From the IMG/VR virus record IMGVR_UViG_3300029911_000025, positions 1-64,000 of that record: a stretch of 64,000 nt of DNA. One strand, written 5' to 3'. A model generated the notes under the pieces. That model was given only the letters and a program-made list of their open reading frames with translations. It made no database searches and was not told the DNA's origin. The position numbers and the translations under genes are program-made. Of the stretch, positions 1,089 through 44,694 are shown one piece after another; the first letter of the stretch is position 1, and each line of letters opens with the position of its first letter. This DNA comes from a virus.

Positions 1089-1363
1089 TGGCTGAAAAGC
1101 ACCACGCCGATCATGGGCCGATCTCTGCCGAGCATCACGCGCTGATGAACAGCCTGGCGCACGGTCTGGACGAAATCTTCAACGGCAAGGACTGCCCCGC
1201 CGACAAGAAGCGCGTCGGCTTCTTCCTGACCGTGTTCAACCTTGATGAATCCGAGGGTCGTTTCAACTACATCAGCAACGCCGACAAACTAGATGTGCGG
1301 GTGATGCTGAAAGACGTTCTAGCGCGCATCGAAGCCAGACTTTCACCAGAAGGAACAGCATAA
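1088..1363 (+). CDS. Hypothetical phage protein (91 aa)
   Basis: The start is the ATG of a TGATG overlap; a longer frame upstream lies inside the previous gene and was rejected. The N-terminus is His-rich (KHHADHG, EHHA), and the rest is an amphipathic helical protein with a central FFLTVFNLDE stretch. Its stop overlaps the start of the Acb2/Tad1-like gene (TAATG), so the two are probably co-translated. Small, compact, with no recognised family. Confidence 0.7.
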   Translation: MAEKHHADHGPISAEHHALMNSLAHGLDEIFNGKDCPADKKRVGFFLTVFNLDESEGRFNYISNADKLDVRVMLKDVLARIEARLSPEGTA

Positions 1364-1605
1364 TGACCACTACAGGCGAAACCCTGACTTTCGGACAAAA
1401 GGCCGTGGGCCTTACATTCAATCCGTCGGCTGATGCCGCCGTGAACGAGTGCAAGCTAACCCACGCTGCGGCCATCGATCAGATGGACACCTTCCGCAAT
1501 CTGCCGACAACCTCGCCGGAGGCGAAGCGGCTCGCGTCCATCGCCATTACCGAACTTCAAGGCGCCCAGATGTGGGCGGTGAAGGCGCTAACGTGGAAGC
1601 CATGA
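1363..1605 (+). CDS. Acb2/Tad1-like cyclic-nucleotide sponge candidate
   Basis: This 80-residue protein has the layout of the Acb2/Tad1 hairpin family: a short N-terminal segment (GQKAVGLTFNPS) and two long helices. The second helix contains PEAKRLASIAITELQGAQM and ends in WAVKAL. Known members are phage-encoded sponges that bind the signal molecules of CBASS (Acb2) or Thoeris (Tad1) and so block abortive infection. They assemble from helical hairpins, which fits the size here. The gene overlaps both neighbours (TAATG and ATGA) inside a cluster of small accessory genes, a typical place for counter-defence functions. The family call rests on motif resemblance; which signal it binds, if any, cannot be read from sequence. 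Confidence 0.7.
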   Translation: MTTTGETLTFGQKAVGLTFNPSADAAVNECKLTHAAAIDQMDTFRNLPTTSPEAKRLASIAITELQGAQMWAVKALTWKP

Positions 1606-35586: not shown

Positions 35587-36600
35587 TTAGGCCACGATCG
35601 ACGTGAAGAAGTAGCCCAAGTCCGATCCAACCACCCTCATATCGAAGGCCATTTCCGCTTCACAGCGGGTGGTGGATCCCGGCTTGCCACGATTCGGCAC
35701 GGGTTCGGACCAAGCGCTGACACCGTCAGCGTTGTTTCCCTCAAGCCCGGCCCATCCGAAGATGTACCCGGCGGAGGGGACCATAAGGCCCGGCTCCGGC
35801 GCACTGTGGCAAAGCAGCGCCGTTTTGCCCACGGCGAAGCTGTAGGAGCCCGTAAGACCCTCCTGTGCCGTGTTATAGGTAGCCTTGGCCACCAACACCC
35901 GGTCCACGTCAAACGCCGCTGCCAGGAGCTCCGGCGTAATCGCCTTGGCGTCGGCCTGCATCGTGTATTTGACGCGGTCGATGACGAGGGGATGCTTCCG
36001 GAGTGCTTGGTACACCGGCCACGCGATGGTGAGCATGTTTGCCTCCTGCCCGGTGTTCTGCAGGATGGTGGTCTGACCCGCCGCCACGTCCGAGAACGGA
36101 TCGGAGTTGGCGCCGTCGCTCCACTGGTAGACCTGCGAACCCGTGGGGGACGCTGCGCCAGTGATATCGGTGCCCCAGATGCTGGTCGTCAGATATTTGG
36201 AGGCAAACTGACGGTCGCGCCTGATGAGCAGCTTCTGCATCAGCATGCGCGTCACGGCGACCTCGATATCGACGGCGGGGTCGGCGTTGCGGCGCATTTG
36301 GTCACCGATGTCCTTGTGCAGCGCCCAAACGAGCGCGGCATAGGACGCCGTGGACAGGTTCAGACCGGAGCCGGCAGACTCTTGGCCATCACCGCGGAGT
36401 TGCGCTTCATCGCGGAAGAAGTCGTCCTTGTTCCAGATGTAGTACAGGTCGGACTGAAAGTCCACCGGCACGATCGGAAACACCTTGTCAGCGATGTAGT
36501 TGGCCGCGTCCTGCATATACGCGACGGCGATGTTGGTCAGCGGCGCGTTGGTGTGGACGGAACCGGAAGTGATGGAAGCCTTGCGAAGATCGCGGGGCAT
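35587..36600 (-). CDS. Major capsid protein
   Basis: A 337-residue protein of HK97-fold capsid type. It opens with helices and IADKVFPIVPVDFQSDLYYI, then DEAQLRGDG, and continues with WALHKDIGDQMRRNADPAVD and QLLIRRDRQFA-like segments shared by phage capsids of this group. A C-terminal SDLGYFFTSIVA strand follows. It lies after scaffold and decoration genes in the usual order, and a good ribosome site precedes it. There is no N-terminal scaffold fusion. Confidence 0.9.
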   Translation of the reverse strand: MPRDLRKASITSGSVHTNAPLTNIAVAYMQDAANYIADKVFPIVPVDFQSDLYYIWNKDDFFRDEAQLRGDGQESAGSGLNLSTASYAALVWALHKDIGDQMRRNADPAVDIEVAVTRMLMQKLLIRRDRQFASKYLTTSIWGTDITGAASPTGSQVYQWSDGANSDPFSDVAAGQTTILQNTGQEANMLTIAWPVYQALRKHPLVIDRVKYTMQADAKAITPELLAAAFDVDRVLVAKATYNTAQEGLTGSYSFAVGKTALLCHSAPEPGLMVPSAGYIFGWAGLEGNNADGVSAWSEPVPNRGKPGSTTRCEAEMAFDMRVVGSDLGYFFTSIVA

Positions 36601-36642: not shown

Positions 36643-37017
36643 TTAACCGAGCGAACCGAGATCGACGGTGGCGACGCCGCCCGCGGAACCGGCTTCGATG
36701 GCCACGCCGACGACCGCATTGGTCGACGTCTTGGTCACGAGTTTGCCGGTTGTGGCTTCGGTCATGAGCTGATCACCGGCTGCGAAGCCCGCCGCGCCGA
36801 CTTGGGCTTGGCAAATGCCGCGTTGGACGATGATCGTGGCTTGACCAGCGGCGGGGTTGTTTTGAAGAATCCCGCAGATGGCCACGCCGCCGGTCACTTC
36901 GAGGGTGACCGTGCGCGCCGTGGTGGATTGCCTGACCGCGCAGTATTGCGCGGCGGCGAGAGTGCCGTCGGCAATGCGATTGCCGCCGTCAGTAAGCTGA
37001 GAACCGGAAGTAGCCAT
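36643..37017 (-). CDS. Capsid decoration/stabilisation protein (DUF2190-like)
   Basis: The 124-residue protein is made of short strands with Ala/Gly/Thr (DGTLAAAQYCAVRQSTTA, VTGGVAICGILQNNPAAGQA). This recalls DUF2190 and other small cement proteins encoded just before the major capsid gene. About 40 noncoding bases lie on each side. Confidence 0.75.
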   Translation of the reverse strand: MATSGSQLTDGGNRIADGTLAAAQYCAVRQSTTARTVTLEVTGGVAICGILQNNPAAGQATIIVQRGICQAQVGAAGFAAGDQLMTEATTGKLVTKTSTNAVVGVAIEAGSAGGVATVDLGSLG

Positions 37018-37058: not shown

Positions 37059-38192
37059 TTAGGCCGCCGCTTCAGCCTTCATGCGCTTGACGATGTCGGC
37101 GTTCGCCGGATCGGTGTACGCCTTGGAGTACGCTTGGGCGGGCTTCAGGTTGGGATTGTTTTTCTTGACCTCCTCCACCTTGGCCAGGAGTTCGCCCTCG
37201 GCGCCGGAGGGGTTTTCGCCGTCACCGCCGAAGCTCTTGAAGAGGCCACCTTGGCGCACCTGCTCTTGGAGACCCTTGATACGCTTCTCGATTTCGAGCT
37301 GCGCCGCGGAGTCGCCCGAGTAAGCTTTGCGGAGAGTCGGGGCGAAATCGGCGCCGAAACCGATATCAGTCGACCGCTTGGCCATGTCGGCAATCGCGGC
37401 GTCTTCCCGTGCCTTGGCCAAGTCAGCACCCTGAGCAACCAGTTTGTCGTTCTGGCTCTTCAGAACCGAGAAGAGTTCGTCGCCGACCTTGGCCTTCGCG
37501 ATCACGACACCTTCCGGAGTGCGGAAAGCGGCGCCATCGGCCAGGGCCTTCTCGATGTCGGGCGCCGACTTGTTGCACTCGGCATCGCGCCCATCGCTGT
37601 CCATCGCCATGAACTTGTCCTTGGCGTCGCCGGTGAGATTGGCGGCGAATGCCTTGTGCTTGTCACTCATCTTGGCGAGGGTTTGGGCTTCAGCCAAATC
37701 GGCCTGAGCCTTGGTCAGGGCTTCAACGGACGCGGCCGACTTGGCCACGTTTTCAGCGAGTGCCTTGGTAACGTCGGCTTCCGTGGCCGTTTCCGGCAGA
37801 CCGAGAACCTTTGCAAGTTCCTTCAACATAGTGTAGTTCTCCTTGGTTATGTCCCACTCCTTGGGAAGTTCCGAAGTTGCCCCCAACGCTTTTGCGCGGG
37901 AGATAATATGGGCGCGAATTGCGGCATGACTCCCGCTACCGCGCCCGATAGCGTGAATGGCGTTGTGGAGATCCTCCACATCGTTTATCGGATAAGAGCC
38001 GTCGTTCATGGCGTGGCCGTTGGCCGCCGCTGCGTCGCGCTCATCCGCTGTGAACTTTCTCTTGCAGAAATCTTCGTACGACTCGCCGCGCTTCATAATA
38101 TCGGCGCTGGCGTGCTCTTGGCACGGGCGGTCGACAGCGGCCACCTTGTCAATGCGAAGTTCACGAAGTATTCGTCGTGTCATCTTTTCCAT
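37059..38192 (-). CDS. Scaffold-like head protein with DUF6582-like N-terminus (377 aa)
   Basis: Residues 1-30 (RILRELRIDKVAAVDRPCQE) resemble the end of prohead proteases. Residues 40-115 (FCKRKFTADERDAAAANGHAM, then SYPINDVEDLHNAIHAIGRG, PKEWDI) match the DUF6582-type domain. The remainder is a long Ala/Lys/Glu helical region (LAKVLGLPETATEADVTKAL onward) typical of scaffolds. So it may be an assembly scaffold, possibly cut by the XkdF-like protease encoded just upstream. The first residues overlap the previous gene by 13 bases. Confidence 0.75.
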   Translation of the reverse strand: MEKMTRRILRELRIDKVAAVDRPCQEHASADIMKRGESYEDFCKRKFTADERDAAAANGHAMNDGSYPINDVEDLHNAIHAIGRGSGSHAAIRAHIISRAKALGATSELPKEWDITKENYTMLKELAKVLGLPETATEADVTKALAENVAKSAASVEALTKAQADLAEAQTLAKMSDKHKAFAANLTGDAKDKFMAMDSDGRDAECNKSAPDIEKALADGAAFRTPEGVVIAKAKVGDELFSVLKSQNDKLVAQGADLAKAREDAAIADMAKRSTDIGFGADFAPTLRKAYSGDSAAQLEIEKRIKGLQEQVRQGGLFKSFGGDGENPSGAEGELLAKVEEVKKNNPNLKPAQAYSKAYTDPANADIVKRMKAEAAA

Positions 38193-38456: not shown

Positions 38457-39404
38457 TTAGTCGTGCTCTTCGTATGCGAGACGCTTGCCCTCGATGCTGA
38501 ACCCAGTGTACTCGCCCGACTGGAACTTCGCGAGAACATCGGGCGGCGGCGCAAAGGCGCACATCAGGCCGGTCTTCTCGGTTGTGATTCCCATCGCTTT
38601 TGCGATATCTGTGGTCAGCGGAAACAGAAACGGGTAATGGCCACGGTCGGGGCCGTCGTGCATTTCATTGCCGGGCGTTGCCCCGGACTTCGTCATGTCG
38701 AAGGCCGCCTTGGTCATGACATCTTCGGGGATATGCTCTGGCACTCGCTCACCCGCGTGGGAGCCCACAGTATCGACGTTCAAGTCGTAGTAATCTTCGC
38801 CTTTGACCTTACAGACGACTGCCCAGCCAAACACAAGGCCGAGGCTCTTGTCGATTTTGGCCACGCGAAAACTCGGGTTCATCGGCGTCGTTGTTTCTGC
38901 CGACATGGACTCTGTCTCATCCTCGTTGCCAAGCGCCGTGGGGGTGTGAACGCTGGAAGCTGTGATATCTTTGCGCAAGCCCTTATCCTTCGCCCAGTTC
39001 TCATTCAGCGGCTGGTGAACCTCAGGCCCAAACTTCAGAGGAAAATCTGGTGGCGTCAACCGTGTCGGGTCAGGGTCTGAACTATCGTAACTAAGTGTGA
39101 CGTGCGGATGATACCCATCGAAATCGTGGCTTGCCCCCGCCGCCATAGCCTGCGTATGCCGCGCTTGAAACGCGTCAGACGCAAAACTTAGGACCAGCGC
39201 TCCTTTGTCGCCCAGCATTTGGACTTTGCGCTTGACAATGACTGTGTCATCTTTGGGCGTAAAGTCTGTTACAGGCGCTCGCGAATAAACTTGTGTGACG
39301 TGCATCTCTTCAGGCGGTACGACGTTCTTGATACCACGCGCCACGGCCCAGTTATAGAGTTGCTCCGCATTGAGCAAAGGCCGGTAGACGTAGAGATTAT
39401 CCAC
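38457..39404 (-). CDS. 2H phosphoesterase fused to XkdF-like prohead protease
   Basis: A 315-residue fusion with GTG start. The first about 130 residues form a 2H phosphoesterase: His35-Val-Thr (MHVTQVY) and His101-Val-Thr (HPHVTLSY), the two HxT motifs that cut 2',5' or 3',5' phosphodiesters. From about 165 on (FRVAKIDKSLGLVFGWAVVC, NEMHDGPDRGHYPFLFP, EYTGFSIEGKRLAYEE) it is the XkdF-like serine protease thought to mature the prohead; the His and the FSIEG Ser are in place. It lies directly before scaffold and capsid genes. The phosphoesterase may cleave RNA, cyclic nucleotides (Acb1 is a 2H enzyme) or neither; its attachment to a head protein is striking. Confidence 0.83.
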   Translation of the reverse strand: MDNLYVYRPLLNAEQLYNWAVARGIKNVVPPEEMHVTQVYSRAPVTDFTPKDDTVIVKRKVQMLGDKGALVLSFASDAFQARHTQAMAAGASHDFDGYHPHVTLSYDSSDPDPTRLTPPDFPLKFGPEVHQPLNENWAKDKGLRKDITASSVHTPTALGNEDETESMSAETTTPMNPSFRVAKIDKSLGLVFGWAVVCKVKGEDYYDLNVDTVGSHAGERVPEHIPEDVMTKAAFDMTKSGATPGNEMHDGPDRGHYPFLFPLTTDIAKAMGITTEKTGLMCAFAPPPDVLAKFQSGEYTGFSIEGKRLAYEEHD

Positions 39405-39558
39405 GATTGCGCTCCAGTGCCTCTGCGATGCGGTTCATCGTGTTCAAAAAGATGCCTACAAGACCCAGCGCGATGCTCGCCGCATTTTTCTCATCGTCGA
39501 TGGCAATGGCGCGCTGAAGTTTCATGAGTTCATTGTTGATGTGGTGTTCGTCGCTCAC
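39397..39558 (-). CDS. Small helical membrane-like peptide (53 aa)
   Basis: The GTG start overlaps the previous stop as GTGA and the end overlaps the next gene by eight bases. The sequence has a charged N-terminal helix (NNELMKLQRAIAIDDEK) and a hydrophobic NAASIALGLVGIFLNTM segment, followed by a basic end. Coupling supports translation; the role is unknown. Confidence 0.55.
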   Translation of the reverse strand: MSDEHHINNELMKLQRAIAIDDEKNAASIALGLVGIFLNTMNRIAEALERNRG

Positions 39559-39905
39559 CGCCAAGCCACCGTCACATCGGCCGCCGTGCCGGTTGCGGTC
39601 AGAACAGTGATGCCAAGCTTGGCCGTCACGTTGTATGTGTAGCAGCCGAGTGACGTAGTGTCCAACGTGGCAATCACTGTGCCGCTGGCAGCGCTGGCGT
39701 TATCGTACACGGCGAGCACGTTGGCGCTGGCGCCCTTGGTGTTCACACAGATTGTGCCCAGTACGCCGGGACGGTTATCGACGACCGTGGTGGCGTTCGT
39801 GGAAATATGCGCGTAGTTATAGGTCGGAACCGAGGGACTGGGAAGCGCCAGCGCGGAAGAAGCCGCGCAGAAGAGCGCGGCGGCAAGAGCGAATTTGCGA
39901 AACAT
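39555..39905 (-). CDS. Exported small protein with signal peptide (116 aa)
   Basis: The ATG at 39905 is preceded by ACAGGACAG and starts a signal-peptide-like segment (MFRKFALAAALFCAASSALA). The longer frame upstream has no ribosome site. The mature part is beta-rich (NYAHISTNATTVV, KLGITVLTATG). An exported protein in the head cluster is unusual; it may act on the host periplasm, or the N-terminus may remain in the virion. Confidence 0.65.
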   Translation of the reverse strand: MFRKFALAAALFCAASSALALPSPSVPTYNYAHISTNATTVVDNRPGVLGTICVNTKGASANVLAVYDNASAASGTVIATLDTTSLGCYTYNVTAKLGITVLTATGTAADVTVAWR

Positions 39906-39906
39906 A

Positions 39907-40212
39907 TTATCTGTCCTGTATGAGAATGGAGACCATGTCTTCAAACGTGCGCCCACCAGCCGTGATGATCTGGATGAGCATGGTATATCTGTTACCAAGA
40001 GTGCCGCCTTCTAGCCAAGTAACCGTTCCTTGGTTTGTAAGCGCGCCCTGCACCGGGCCAACGCCGTGCGAAATAATCACCAGCGCAGTATCCGGCCAAT
40101 CTTGGGGTGAGAGTGTTGTTGACGCAATGGTGTCGGTCCCGAGCCCGCGTGTCGTCCAATTATACCCGTAATCCAAAACTTCGCCGGGTTCTTTGAAAGG
40201 CCATGCGCTCAT
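39907..40212 (-). CDS. Phage fibre-associated small protein (101 aa)
   Basis: The opening MSAWPFKEPGEVLDYGYNWT, then DTIASTTL, TVTWLEGGTLGNRYTML and TAGGRTFEDMVSILI matches a small protein family that accompanies phage fibres and adhesins. It lies directly behind the glycine-rich adhesin gene with a four-base overlap. Confidence 0.75.
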   Translation of the reverse strand: MSAWPFKEPGEVLDYGYNWTTRGLGTDTIASTTLSPQDWPDTALVIISHGVGPVQGALTNQGTVTWLEGGTLGNRYTMLIQIITAGGRTFEDMVSILIQDR

Positions 40213-42494
40213 GCCGCCACAGTCCTATTTTCTTTGGGTGCGTTGATCACCCTATTTTCCGGCCATGCCGTGATTAACCGGGTTTCTTTTGCCGCCGCTA
40301 TTGCCCGACTCGGCGGTATTCCCGATGCAGACGTTATGTACGGCTTAGATATATCCACCGCCGCGCCGGTTTCAACTACATAACTTGTAGGCGCGGGACC
40401 GGCAGTCGAAGAACTATCAGCCGCCGCGCCGGTTTCAGCTACTGCCGCAGCCGCAACGAGCAAGGCGTCGGTGATATCTGCGGCAAGCCCCGTTTCAGAA
40501 ACGCTCTCCGCTATTTGCAGCGAGACCGCGACGAAATCGGTTGCCGCGCCAACTTCGACAACGGAAGCCGAGGCCACTAACGCTGCTGAAGATGTATCGG
40601 TAGCGGTTCCGCTTTCTGTAACCGTAGACTGCGCAGTTAGCTTGGAGCTCACTGCATCAGAGGCCGCGCCACTTTCGGTGACGCTTACACCCGCGCCGAC
40701 GCTCGTCGCCGTGGTATCCGCCGCCGCTCCTGTTTCTGTAACCGCGTTGGCGGACGAAACAAGCGCGTTTGCCGAATCGCTTGTGGACCCTGACTCTGAA
40801 ACACTAGCGGCAAACGCGCCAGCGGCCGAAACTGTATCAGAAGCGGCGCCGCTTTCCGCAATGATGTCAGCGGTAGAAATAAGATCAGCAACGGTATCTG
40901 CCGCGCTGCCGCTTTCCGCAATGCTGTCAGCGGTAGAAATAAGATCAGCAACGGTATCTGCCGCGCTGCCGCTTTCCGCAATAACCACGATAGGCGTGTA
41001 GGTAACGACGATGACACCAGCGCCACCCGTCCCGCCGCCGCCTACGTTGTAGCCGCCGCCCCCGCCACCGCCGTACGCGCCACCGTTAGAGCCGCTTAGA
41101 TCAAAGGAACTACACGCGCCGCCGCCGCCGCCGCCTGACCCAACAACAGTCGGCGTAGAGGCGATGTTCTGGCCCGCAGCACCAGCCGTGGAAGCAACCG
41201 TCGTCGTGGATCCTGCACCCCCAGCGCCGCCGACCGCGGTTCCCGCGCCGCCAGACCCGCCCACTGGCGTAGCAAAAGCGCCCCCACCAACGGTACCAGC
41301 TGCGATATTGCTCCCCGCACCGCCGCCACCGCCACCGCCCCGAGCTGTAACGCCGAGACCACCCGCGCCACCCGCAAAAGACAGCGATCCGGAAAATACC
41401 GAGGGCGCTGCGCCGCCGGATGTCGTAGTAGCAGACGCGCCACCCGCCGCCCCGACCGAGGCGGTACCTACGGAAGTTCCGTTAAACCACGACGCCGCCG
41501 TGCCAGAGCCGCCCGCCGTGCCGCCCGCCGTCCCGACCTGTATATTGATTGACGCGCCGGGAGCGACGTTCACATTGGTTTGCCGCGCGTACCCGCCGCC
41601 CGCGCCGCCGCCCCCACCCGTGGATGACCCGCCCGTGAAACCGTTACCGCCAGCACCGATGACTTCGACAAGGTTGCTGTTCGGATTGAAATCAGACGGA
41701 ACAGTCCACGTAGAACCACTAGTGATAATCGCGACTTTGGCGATCGCGGGAACATACGTGATAACGATAAGGCCGCTACCGCCTACGCCACCGCCCCCGG
41801 CATTGTAACCGCCGCCGCCCCCGGCGCCGTGGCTCCCGCCATTCGCGCCGCCGGTATCGCCTGCGGCAAGAGAGCCGCCGCCGCCGCCGCCGCCGGACCC
41901 GACGCCCGAGAGCTGCGACCCAAAGTTCGTGCCCGACCCGCCGATGTTGGGCGGCGCGCTGGCCGTGCCCCCCGACCCGCCAGCGGCTCCGCCGTTGCCC
42001 GCGCCGCCTGCGCCCCCCGTGGTGGCCGCGCCAGCCGCGCCAAGGGTTCCGTTGCCGGTCGGGCCCGCAGCCCCGCCCCCGCCGCCGCCGCCCACGGCAG
42101 AGCCGCCCGCCCCGCCAACGACGCCGTTCGTGACCGTGCCTGAGCCGGTAGTCCCACCAGCGCCGCCTCCGGTCGCGGAGACGGCGCTAACCCCGCCGCG
42201 ACACCCCGCCGAGGCTGCGGCGACGGAGGCGCCGTTGAACCACGTCGCCCCGGTCGTGCCGCTTATGCCGCCGCCTGCGCCGACCTGATACTGGACCGAG
42301 TTGCCGGGGGTGAGCGCCACGTTCTCGACGAAGGCGTAGCTGCCCGACCCGCCGCCGCCACCGCCGCTTGTCGCCGCCCCGGTGTAGCCGTTGCCCCCAG
42401 CACCAAGACATTCGATCTTGTTGTTAGAAGACCAGTCAGCCGGAACTGTCCATGACGTCCCAGAAGTTAGAAGTATAATATTCGGGACGGCCAT
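40209..42494 (-). CDS. Large glycine-rich adhesin-like virion protein (761 aa)
   Basis: Two homologous glycine-rich domains fill residues 1-500. Each opens with a TSGTSWTVPADW or TSGSTWTVPSDF segment and is packed with GGGGGG runs, as in the glycine-rich tip domains of phage adhesins that fold as polyglycine sandwiches. Then come about eleven Ser/Ala/Asp-rich repeats of 18-20 residues such as ESGSAADTVADLISTAD. The C-terminus is a repeated AAAKETRLITAWPENRVIN pattern. A receptor-binding or capsid-fibre role is likely, though it lies between portal and protease genes and not at the tail end. Confidence 0.75.
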   Translation of the reverse strand: MAVPNIILLTSGTSWTVPADWSSNNKIECLGAGGNGYTGAATSGGGGGGSGSYAFVENVALTPGNSVQYQVGAGGGISGTTGATWFNGASVAAASAGCRGGVSAVSATGGGAGGTTGSGTVTNGVVGGAGGSAVGGGGGGGAAGPTGNGTLGAAGAATTGGAGGAGNGGAAGGSGGTASAPPNIGGSGTNFGSQLSGVGSGGGGGGGSLAAGDTGGANGGSHGAGGGGGYNAGGGGVGGSGLIVITYVPAIAKVAIITSGSTWTVPSDFNPNSNLVEVIGAGGNGFTGGSSTGGGGGAGGGYARQTNVNVAPGASINIQVGTAGGTAGGSGTAASWFNGTSVGTASVGAAGGASATTTSGGAAPSVFSGSLSFAGGAGGLGVTARGGGGGGGAGSNIAAGTVGGGAFATPVGGSGGAGTAVGGAGGAGSTTTVASTAGAAGQNIASTPTVVGSGGGGGGACSSFDLSGSNGGAYGGGGGGGYNVGGGGTGGAGVIVVTYTPIVVIAESGSAADTVADLISTADSIAESGSAADTVADLISTADIIAESGAASDTVSAAGAFAASVSESGSTSDSANALVSSANAVTETGAAADTTATSVGAGVSVTESGAASDAVSSKLTAQSTVTESGTATDTSSAALVASASVVEVGAATDFVAVSLQIAESVSETGLAADITDALLVAAAAVAETGAAADSSSTAGPAPTSYVVETGAAVDISKPYITSASGIPPSRAIAAAKETRLITAWPENRVINAPKENRTVAA
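40859..40980 (-). repeat. 60-bp direct repeat, two copies
   Basis: Two consecutive 60-base segments differ by one base. Each encodes one 20-residue ESGSAADTVADLISTAD-type unit in the adhesin-like protein. Near-identity suggests a recent duplication; neighbouring repeats are far more diverged. Confidence 0.9.
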
Positions 42495-42508: not shown

Positions 42509-43093
42509 TTAGATACTCATGGAGTACGATACATTGACCACGTCGCTGGTAAGAACGGCGCGCGTGCCGCCTGTGAACAACCCTGCCGAGATAAGCGTGC
42601 CCGAAGTGTTCATCAAAGTGGCAACCGCGCCGGAACCGCCGACCAGGAAGCAACCTTCCAACGTACCGCCAGAGGTCATTGTGAACGAAAGCGCCGATGC
42701 AAGCGCCTTAGCTCCGCCCGAGGCTGCGGACCAGCCGCCATTGGTAGTGATACGCGCGGTGAACGTAGGTGCGTTGGTCGAACCCGCCTCGGTCCAACCC
42801 GAGTGAGACGCCATGGTGTCACCCGCCACAATGGCCGTGTAAGACACCGAGGAGATAAGCCCCATGAACGGCCCAGTAGCGGTCCACGCCGATCCGGCGA
42901 GCGCTTGGTCGAGAATGAGGTTCTTGCCCACGTTCACGACAAGGTTGGGAAACTCATCCTCCCACTTGATGTTCCCGTCCGCATCGAGGCACTGGGCATA
43001 GTAGATGCCGATAGCCTCGCAACGATCAGCCGCGCCGTTGTTGCCGATAATCATCGCACCGACCATAGCTTGAGCGTTCAATTTATCGTTCAT
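42509..43093 (-). CDS. Hypothetical head-region protein (194 aa)
   Basis: It opens with MNDKLNAQAMVGAMIIGNNG and has GIYYAQCLDADGNIKWEDEF, TGPFMGLISSVSYTAIVAGD and an ending SDVVNVSYSMSI. These features suggest a beta-sandwich virion protein, as in families found near phage fibres. It follows the portal with a four-base overlap. The role is unknown. Confidence 0.65.
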   Translation of the reverse strand: MNDKLNAQAMVGAMIIGNNGAADRCEAIGIYYAQCLDADGNIKWEDEFPNLVVNVGKNLILDQALAGSAWTATGPFMGLISSVSYTAIVAGDTMASHSGWTEAGSTNAPTFTARITTNGGWSAASGGAKALASALSFTMTSGGTLEGCFLVGGSGAVATLMNTSGTLISAGLFTGGTRAVLTSDVVNVSYSMSI

Positions 43094-44694
43094 CTGCTCT
43101 TCTTTCGTTTTGATTTGATGGTGATATAGTTCCCACGTTCTAGGCGGCGGGCCAACATCCCCGCTATGTGCTTCTGCAACGACGCATCCGTGGCCGCAGC
43201 GGCGTTATCCGGCACGCGCCGAGGGTCTTGGACCCCAGGATCAGTGCTTGCCGGGCCTTCAACACCGCTTACTTCGGAGAGTTGACCCTCCGAGAGTTCC
43301 GGAAGGTCCGCAGCTTCGCGCAGATAGTTCTCAAGGTCATTATCAGGGAATAACCGCGCCCCGGCTTGGGACATATTGTAGATAAACGTGCCCAAAGAAT
43401 CAAGGTCCGTGCGTTGTGGCATGCTCGGCACGAACTGCGGCATGGTGTCATCGCCTTCACCGTTCAAATCCCAGAGTCGGCCCACTCCATAATCGTTAAG
43501 AACGGCGGCATTGGAGTCTAGCCAGCCTTCAGTGGCCTGAAAAAACAGGTCCAACTTGGTCACACCAAGCGACTGCGTGCCTCTAGACGAGTGCCCGAGC
43601 ATCAAAAAGTCAGCCAGGACACTCGTCATCATGTCGAGTTTGTACCTTTCGATGGCCGGATCGAAGTTGATCGCTACTCGGCCACTTTGGGGCACATTGT
43701 ACTTGAATTCGTACATGGGGACCGTGCTCGGAGTTCCGTCGGGGTTTTCGTAGGTGTCCGACGGAGTTATGAGCCCCATTTGCTCGTCGACCTTGATATT
43801 GGTCACGATTTTCTTGAATTGCTCGATGCTGGCGAGCGCACCGGGGTCCCCTGTCGCTGCCGCTTCCATCACGGCATTTGGGATTCTATATTCCGGCGTG
43901 CCAGACATGCGCTCAAGGGCGATGGCTTCCTGCTCCTCAAGGCGGCTGGCGAACCACCACGGGCGGTAAGCGCTCCGAAGTATGGAGTTACCCTCGGGAT
44001 TGTTCTTGTGCGCCCTCGGACGGAAAAGCAGCATCTTGTTTATCGGTATATCGATGAGGCCGCCGAACCACGGTTGCTGCGTGAGCCCGGTGACGTCGCC
44101 TTCTTCATCGAAGAACCACTTCAGAATGGTATCTTGTCCACGCAGAGCGATCTTGGCCCAGCCAATCTTACCGTCGTTGAACTTGCTGGACCGCTTCTTC
44201 GGCCCTACACCCGTATTGCGCTGACGTCCGTCGCGCTTCTTATACACAAGTTCGTGCGGTGCGAACCCATACGGGAGCATGCTCAGCGTTTCGGAGACAA
44301 AATCTGGCCATGGCTGGTTCATGTCCTCCATACAAGTCTCAAGGAATTCGGCCCCTTCGATCGCATTGGAGGCATCGCTCGCAGAACTAACCCTCCAAGA
44401 GACTTGGCGCATGGTTTGTTGAATGGCGAACAGGATGGCACCCACGGTTGGGGAGTTGTCTTGCATCTCGCGGTAAGTCCGCGCCGCCTGCCGCCCTCTT
44501 AACTGAGGAAGAAATTCTTCTCGGACCCAGCCGCCATACTGGCGCAGTCCCGAGGAGCCACGCGTCCGCGAAAGTTGCTGCCAAGTAAGGTCGCTCGGCG
44601 GGCTGGGATACCCCATGCTCGCATCTGGGGCGATACCCCTGTTAGTCGGATCCGGGGCGAGAATTCCTCGGCCTCCGCGCGGTGTCTTTGCCAT
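43090..44694 (-). CDS. Portal protein (DUF935/Mu gp29-like)
   Basis: The 534-residue protein has the features of the Mu-like portal group: GAILFAIQQTMRQVSWRV, the ALRGQDTILKWFFDEEGDVT segment, YKLDMMTSVLADFLMLGHSS and LFFQATEGWLDSNAAVL, with an acidic C-terminal region. Portals form the dodecameric ring through which DNA enters and leaves the head. It starts directly next to the large terminase gene, the usual order. Confidence 0.88.
   Translation of the reverse strand: MAKTPRGGRGILAPDPTNRGIAPDASMGYPSPPSDLTWQQLSRTRGSSGLRQYGGWVREEFLPQLRGRQAARTYREMQDNSPTVGAILFAIQQTMRQVSWRVSSASDASNAIEGAEFLETCMEDMNQPWPDFVSETLSMLPYGFAPHELVYKKRDGRQRNTGVGPKKRSSKFNDGKIGWAKIALRGQDTILKWFFDEEGDVTGLTQQPWFGGLIDIPINKMLLFRPRAHKNNPEGNSILRSAYRPWWFASRLEEQEAIALERMSGTPEYRIPNAVMEAAATGDPGALASIEQFKKIVTNIKVDEQMGLITPSDTYENPDGTPSTVPMYEFKYNVPQSGRVAINFDPAIERYKLDMMTSVLADFLMLGHSSRGTQSLGVTKLDLFFQATEGWLDSNAAVLNDYGVGRLWDLNGEGDDTMPQFVPSMPQRTDLDSLGTFIYNMSQAGARLFPDNDLENYLREAADLPELSEGQLSEVSGVEGPASTDPGVQDPRRVPDNAAAATDASLQKHIAGMLARRLERGNYITIKSKRKKSR

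Follow-up and report, generated by a model that had tools for sequence, protein, structure and literature searches.

The question raised by this locus is whether a phage may carry a nuclease against CBASS signalling as part of its own head. The DNA analyzed here (the window) comprises 64,000 bases of a contig of 64,774, which comes from an uncultivated virus. A first-pass annotation had placed at 38457–39404 a 2H phosphoesterase fused to a prohead protease. Such an ORF is indeed present, on the minus strand, which that annotation did not state. It codes for 315 amino acids in one uninterrupted open frame, with a GTG start at 39404 preceded by a GGAG Shine-Dalgarno-like site (39412–39415, minus strand, 7 nt spacer), and its 5' end overlaps the 3' end of an upstream ORF of 55 amino acids. 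The gene is found with 100% identity in a second contig, and other contigs contain copies with 78%, 53% and about 35–42% identity (tblastn): The fusion is therefore not due to chance or mis-assembly. An assembly artefact, a frameshift or a chance pairing are also ruled out by the single open frame and by the presence of the same pairing in about 20 contigs.

The N-terminal part of the protein (residues 3–140, 38985–39398, minus strand) is an Acb1 domain. PF23474 matches these residues with 121.6 bits (cutoff 27, E=2.8e-35 with Pfam), so the 2H domain of the first-pass annotation is specifically an Acb1 homologue with intact catalytic residues, fused to a head protease. A phmmer comparison with PDB sequences gives 7t26 (FBB1 Acb1) at 7e-11; the Pam3 portal (8hds) is also found, with its C-terminal part. 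The AlphaFold2 model of the fusion, run on an alignment of 19 sequences, has two folded domains, residues 1–139 and 181–307. The Acb1 part is folded, and the top Foldseek matches are the solved Acb1 structures 7t26 (E 1.6e-10, TM-score 0.81 by target length) and 7t27, followed by a phosphodiesterase from phage BCSR5 and then by LigT. Searches with PADLOC and NCBIfam gave nothing informative.

For a comparison of the active site, 95 Acb1 domains were aligned with MAFFT and numbered as in T4 Acb1. T4 Acb1 has a catalytic tetrad, H44/T46/H113/T115, stacking residues Y12, W74, F107 and W147, and a residue, E141, which contacts adenine (Hobbs 2022, PMC9117128). Both HxT motifs previously noted as intact are in the sequence: H35-V-T37 (39294–39302) aligns with H44/T46, and H101-V-T103 (39096–39104) with H113/T115, both on the minus strand. 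The tetrad is kept in 22 of 22 protease-fused domains (one of them with HxS), in 40 of 40 portal-fused domains and in 10 of 10 short stand-alone proteins. The positions of Y12, F107 and W147 correspond to Y5, F95 and W137 of the window protein. W74 is replaced by Q62; of the 72 copies tabulated, only the T4-like one has a tryptophan there. E141 is replaced by Q131, at a position which is variable across the family: It is a specificity residue, which does not define Acb1. Since the tetrad is kept, the chemistry of the domain is predicted to be intact, with an uncertain base preference, and the changes at E141 and W74 suggest that its substrate range may differ from that of T4. In the calculation of dN/dS for the Acb1 part, dS was saturated.

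The C-terminal part (residues 181–307, 38484–38864, minus strand) is an XkdF-like prohead protease domain, as judged by homology to the XkdF family and to the C-terminal part of PHROG 1530. The protease serine which had been described is found in this part, in GFSIEG, as the candidate nucleophile Ser303 (38496–38498, minus strand), beside the candidate catalytic His249 (38658–38660, minus strand). Both are invariant in the 34 protease sequences of our alignment, which contains the window protein and homologous loci. The window protein falls below the Pfam threshold for PF14550 (XkdF, Peptidase_S78_2), which is matched by 14 of the 19 homologous fusions, the best one at 7.9e-10. When the protease model alone was compared with the PDB for a herpes/HK97-type protease fold, the matches were weak, the best one being HCMV protease (E=0.22). 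The GFSIxG serine, the invariant histidine and the position in the head operon are shared with XkdF-like proteases; unlike typical members, the window protein is under the Pfam cutoff and has an added Acb1 domain and a capsid-like motif. A protease of the same family, in L015 (5578–7569), has by appearance a C-terminal domain similar to a thioredoxin-reductase-like flavoprotein.

The gene belongs to a head operon on the minus strand, in the order portal, other genes, fusion protease, Mu I-like scaffold, cement and major capsid protein. The fusion fills the protease slot, with the portal on one side and the scaffold and capsid genes on the other. The portal is of the Mu type (43090–44694, PF06074, E=3.3e-28) and has no Acb1 domain here. 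The Mu I-like or scaffold-like head protein (37059–38192) matches PHROG 328, and PF10123 with 24.2 bits, just under the cutoff of 25.2. The capsid cement or decoration protein (36643–37017) matches PF09956 with 24.7 bits (cutoff 24), and the major capsid protein (35587–36600) matches PHROG 1005 (E=1.3e-80). Between portal and protease there is also a glycine-rich repetitive protein of 761 amino acids, perhaps fibre-like (40209–42494, minus strand), whose gene adjoins a small ORF with a start similar to a signal peptide (39555–39998).

The pairing of Acb1 with an XkdF-like protease recurs with identities from 100% to about 35%, the aligned protease fusions being mostly 40–47% identical to the window protein. 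A ChaB domain match is found in 10 of the 19 homologous fusions. Related proteases have a ParB-like domain, or no module at all, where Acb1 would be: The N-terminal module of these proteases is therefore exchangeable. Some names in the databases are misleading. A protein of Rhizobium phage RHph_Y52 (L031, 4740–5477) and PHROG 1530 are annotated as "DNA methyltransferase/prohead protease". The N-terminal part looks ParB-like (motif ..IADGHHR..), so the methyltransferase name was probably carried over from ParB-methylase proteins. In Roseobacter phage DSS3P8, gp129 (L030, 4989–5441) is annotated as an HK97-family prohead protease and is actually a stand-alone Acb1-like protein.

Acb1 is also joined to other head proteins. 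All 65 other ORFs with an Acb1 domain (up to 1,100 amino acids) match Acb1, and portals account for 36 of the family matches (Phage_portal_3 20, Portal_Mu 12, Phage_portal 4). Other matches are MuF (6), XkdF (3), DUF2213 (2), ART-PolyVal (2) and Peptidase_S78 (1), and one ORF may match several families. The proportions of these fusions are biased, because the sample consists of the best 80 of 404 matches and the query alignment itself included head fusions; stand-alone Acb1 of the T4 type is very common among sequenced phages. Several architectures were checked individually: Acb1-Peptidase_S78 (L137), Acb1-DUF2213 (L138, L122), Acb1-XkdF (L163, L096), portal-Acb1-MuF (L115, L151, L128), portal-Acb1-ART, with an ADP-ribosyltransferase (L154), portal-Acb1-NUDIX-ART (L129) and Acb1-ART (L117). 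Acb1 is joined to at least three protease families and three portal families. Cultured phages with a portal-Acb1 fusion include Rhizobium phages RHph_N17 and RHph_TM26 and Synechococcus phage Ssp-JY40. In an Acb1 tree made by a quick method, with the XkdF fusions L096 and L163 scored as "other", the XkdF label needs 10 changes, at least 5 of them forced by starred branches. On this tree the Acb1-XkdF pairing needs several separate origins.

The isolated phages searched yielded no intact fusion of Acb1 with a protease, and a scan of bacterial genomes detected proteases and no full fusion. A related case is Sansa, a cultured phage of the laboratory bacterium Caulobacter. Its gp24 (L183, 11832–13022 of KT001913) has the gene for head morphogenesis on one side and the capsid gene on the other. 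Both halves of gp24 align with the fusion profile (hhalign probability 95%, E=4e-8), and it appears to be a related 2H-protease fusion. Both HxT motifs are absent from it, with KVN where the first one should be, so a 2H domain can persist without catalysis.

The two domains of the window protein are separated by a predicted disordered linker (residues about 140–178, 38871–38987, minus strand), with pLDDT below 50 over 140–178 in the AlphaFold2 model. The linker contains a motif, LRKDITASSVHTPTAL (residues 143–158, 38931–38978, minus strand), which resembles the N-terminus of the capsid protein when compared at the level of a family profile. The major capsid protein of the same phage starts with MPRDLRKASITSGSVHTNAPLTN, and its N-terminal motif is LRKASITSGSVHTNAPL (36538–36588, minus strand). 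Within this genome alone the likeness of linker and capsid lacks significance, as its score of 40 does not exceed the mean for shuffled sequences (40.8). It becomes convincing only with a family-level profile, a 14-column HMM made from capsid-protein N-termini only and run on 22,531 six-frame ORFs. The top 15 non-capsid matches of this HMM are all proteases, as are 25 of the top 30, although proteases make up just 90 of the 22,531 ORFs. The window fusion protein itself matches with E=0.016. Some protease and capsid pairs are near identical; for example, GDVHVNAPL is found in both proteins of L045. In several relatives the motif is located at the N-terminus of the protease itself, as in L018, with MSQPSASAVHVDSP in the protease and MSQPNFSNVHVNAP in the capsid protein.

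Acb1 precedes the motif in the window protein and in L003, and follows it in L008, L045 and L054. Since its side of Acb1 varies between phages, the motif is not simply a cargo-release site, and a dedicated site for the release of Acb1 or other cargo is disfavoured. The presence of the motif in the protease is associated with capsid type (22 of 42 against 0 of 13, Fisher p=7e-4, ignoring kinship). The motif identity between a protease and its own capsid protein is 6.5 against 5.6 of 14 positions, a value reached in none of 20,000 permutations, again ignoring kinship. There is a single change of capsid type on the tree, which leaves this correlation without independent power, and we have dropped it as evidence. 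Two readings of the motif remain: It may be a docking tag, which would bind the partner of the capsid arm, or a site which the protease would cut in both proteins. In phage P1, the capsid protein and the packaged counter-defence protein DarA share N-terminal processing (PMC12810830). As a tentative proposal, the capsid-motif copy may be an address tag or processing site which places fused cargo inside the prohead, the cargo being in this case an anti-CBASS nuclease. In this way, phages would guard both the protein and the assembly step sensed by CBASS, and deliver the nuclease at the next infection.

The sequences show the architecture, the intact tetrad, where the gene lies in the head operon, that the fusion arose repeatedly, and that a capsid-like motif stands beside the protease. 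We think it fairly probable that this protein is a prohead protease with an N-terminal Acb1 nuclease, brought into the prohead by the protease module, and that it hydrolyses CBASS signals, either from the virion or at the assembly site. The protease module and the capsid-like motif would recruit the fused Acb1 to the assembling prohead, and Acb1 would hydrolyse the cyclic di- or trinucleotides of CBASS. It might act from inside the virion once injected, or else at the assembly site, where a prohead protease can itself trigger CBASS. These results suggest that phages carry or position Acb1 counter-defence with their heads. An Acb1 which rides in the head would fit with its repeated fusion to portals, MuF and three protease families.

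Prohead proteases often do not remain once the head has matured. Moreover, a CBASS sensor reportedly interacts with the prohead protease of phage Bas13 and is triggered by it (Richmond-Buccola 2024, as described in PMC12409349). For these reasons, action at the assembly site has to be taken as seriously as carriage and injection, and it gains weight from the Bas13 report. In its strict form, the prohead or its protease would trigger CBASS late in infection, and Acb1 tethered to the protease would destroy the signal at the place and time of its synthesis, so that packaging or injection would be unnecessary. Both the Bas13 interaction, as described there, and the repeated fusion of Acb1 to three protease families agree with this possibility. 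On the other hand, most of the head fusions sampled are portals or MuF proteins, which remain in the virion, and a shared location inside the head explains more cases than triggering by the protease alone. What portal, MuF and protease fusions have in common is mainly that they are inside the virion, which adds weight to action after injection. We consider such an assembly-site guard possible, if somewhat doubtful.

Other explanations question the role of the domain itself. It might be an enzyme for RNA ends (2',3'-cyclic phosphate) or an RNase, not directed against CBASS: Substrates are varied in the 2H superfamily, LigT and 2'-5' RNA ligase models match weakly, E141 and W74 of T4 Acb1 are not kept, and PHROG 755 is named RNA ligase. 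However, the Acb1 model has E=2.8e-35, compared with 0.004 for 2_5_RNA_ligase2, which is under its cutoff. For the LigT / 2'-5' RNA ligase family, PF13563 gives 17.6 bits, below its cutoff of 27. By fold, 7t26 and 7t27 are far above LigT, and the lid Trp137 and the stacking Tyr5 are kept. A generic RNA-end 2H enzyme is therefore a weaker match than Acb1, and we consider this explanation unlikely. The domain might also be mainly structural, an appendage of the protease for assembly or targeting, as the domain region is retained in Sansa gp24 without HxT motifs and the protease family takes other N-terminal modules (ParB-like, ChaB). This is improbable when catalytic residues are found in all 22 aligned protease fusions, despite their low identity, and when many members of the protease family have no such module. 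Equally improbable is the synthesis of the two halves as separate products, with a free protease starting at an internal in-frame ATG (M167, 38904–38906, minus strand) and the full-length protein as a minor form. This ATG is behind a purine-rich sequence in the window and in the homologue L003 (M162), and the linker is predicted to be disordered; but the sequence before M167 matches only weakly, the upstream start is strong, with its Shine-Dalgarno site, no stop separates the halves, and the repeated fusion would be left unexplained.

Returning to the preferred reading, a head-associated Acb1 may not be the only defence of this phage against nucleotide signals. The first-pass annotation had combined the fusion with an Acb2/Tad1-like gene in the same genome. 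This gene, which codes for an Acb2/Tad1 hairpin-domain protein (1363–1605, plus strand), is confirmed by PF24729 (35.9 bits, cutoff 27), and two layers are therefore plausible, the early-region Acb2-like gene being probably a separate, newly synthesised layer. Early-gene regions of the window also contain one ORF each matching HMUDK_hel (5-hmdU DNA kinase), TAGT (TET-associated glycosyltransferase), thymidylate synthase and dUTPase; because of these matches, the DNA of this phage is probably hypermodified.

The Acb1 domain resembles known Acb1 proteins (T4 gp57B and FBB1 Acb1, PDB 7t26/7t27, PMC9117128) in Pfam family, fold, HxT/HxT tetrad and Tyr/Phe/Trp stacking positions. T4 Acb1 is a stand-alone protein, whereas the window domain is fused to a prohead protease, with glutamine in place of E141 and W74. 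In the virion portal of Pam3 (PDB 8hds, chain A), the sequence of the C-terminal region (residues 472–614) is Acb1-like, although this is a portal fusion and its second motif reads HxS. PDB 8hds is absent among the 50 listed fold matches for the fusion model, and its Acb1-like region is perhaps flexible and unmodelled. Counter-defence proteins are also loaded into the prohead in P1 (DarA) and T4 (internal proteins), as proposed for the window fusion. The N-termini of both DarA and the P1 capsid protein are cut by the prohead protease (PMC12810830). These P1 and T4 proteins differ in that they target DNA restriction and are not enzymes joined to the protease.

Polyvalent 2H-MuF and 2H-portal fusions have already been described, with packaging and injection against nucleotide signalling proposed, in Iyer 2017 (PMC5512222) and Iyer 2022 (PMC9503650). 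They share with the window protein the joining of an effector domain to a head protein, beside late head genes. In the parts available, the domain that the 2022 paper describes on a capsid-processing serine peptidase is Nudix and not 2H, and a 2H-prohead protease fusion is found in neither paper. Neither the pairing of Acb1 with three protease families nor the copy of the capsid motif turned up in the accessible portions of the open-access literature searched. To that extent they are new, while the 2H-portal and 2H-MuF idea dates from the papers of 2017 and 2022.

The Acb1 proteins known so far are synthesised after infection. If Acb1 is repeatedly part of head proteins, counter-defence would be present at injection or at the assembly site. 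The motif shared by capsid protein and protease is a testable candidate for the placement of cargo in phage heads, and the question of head-borne Acb1 can already be tested in cultured phages whose portal is fused to Acb1.
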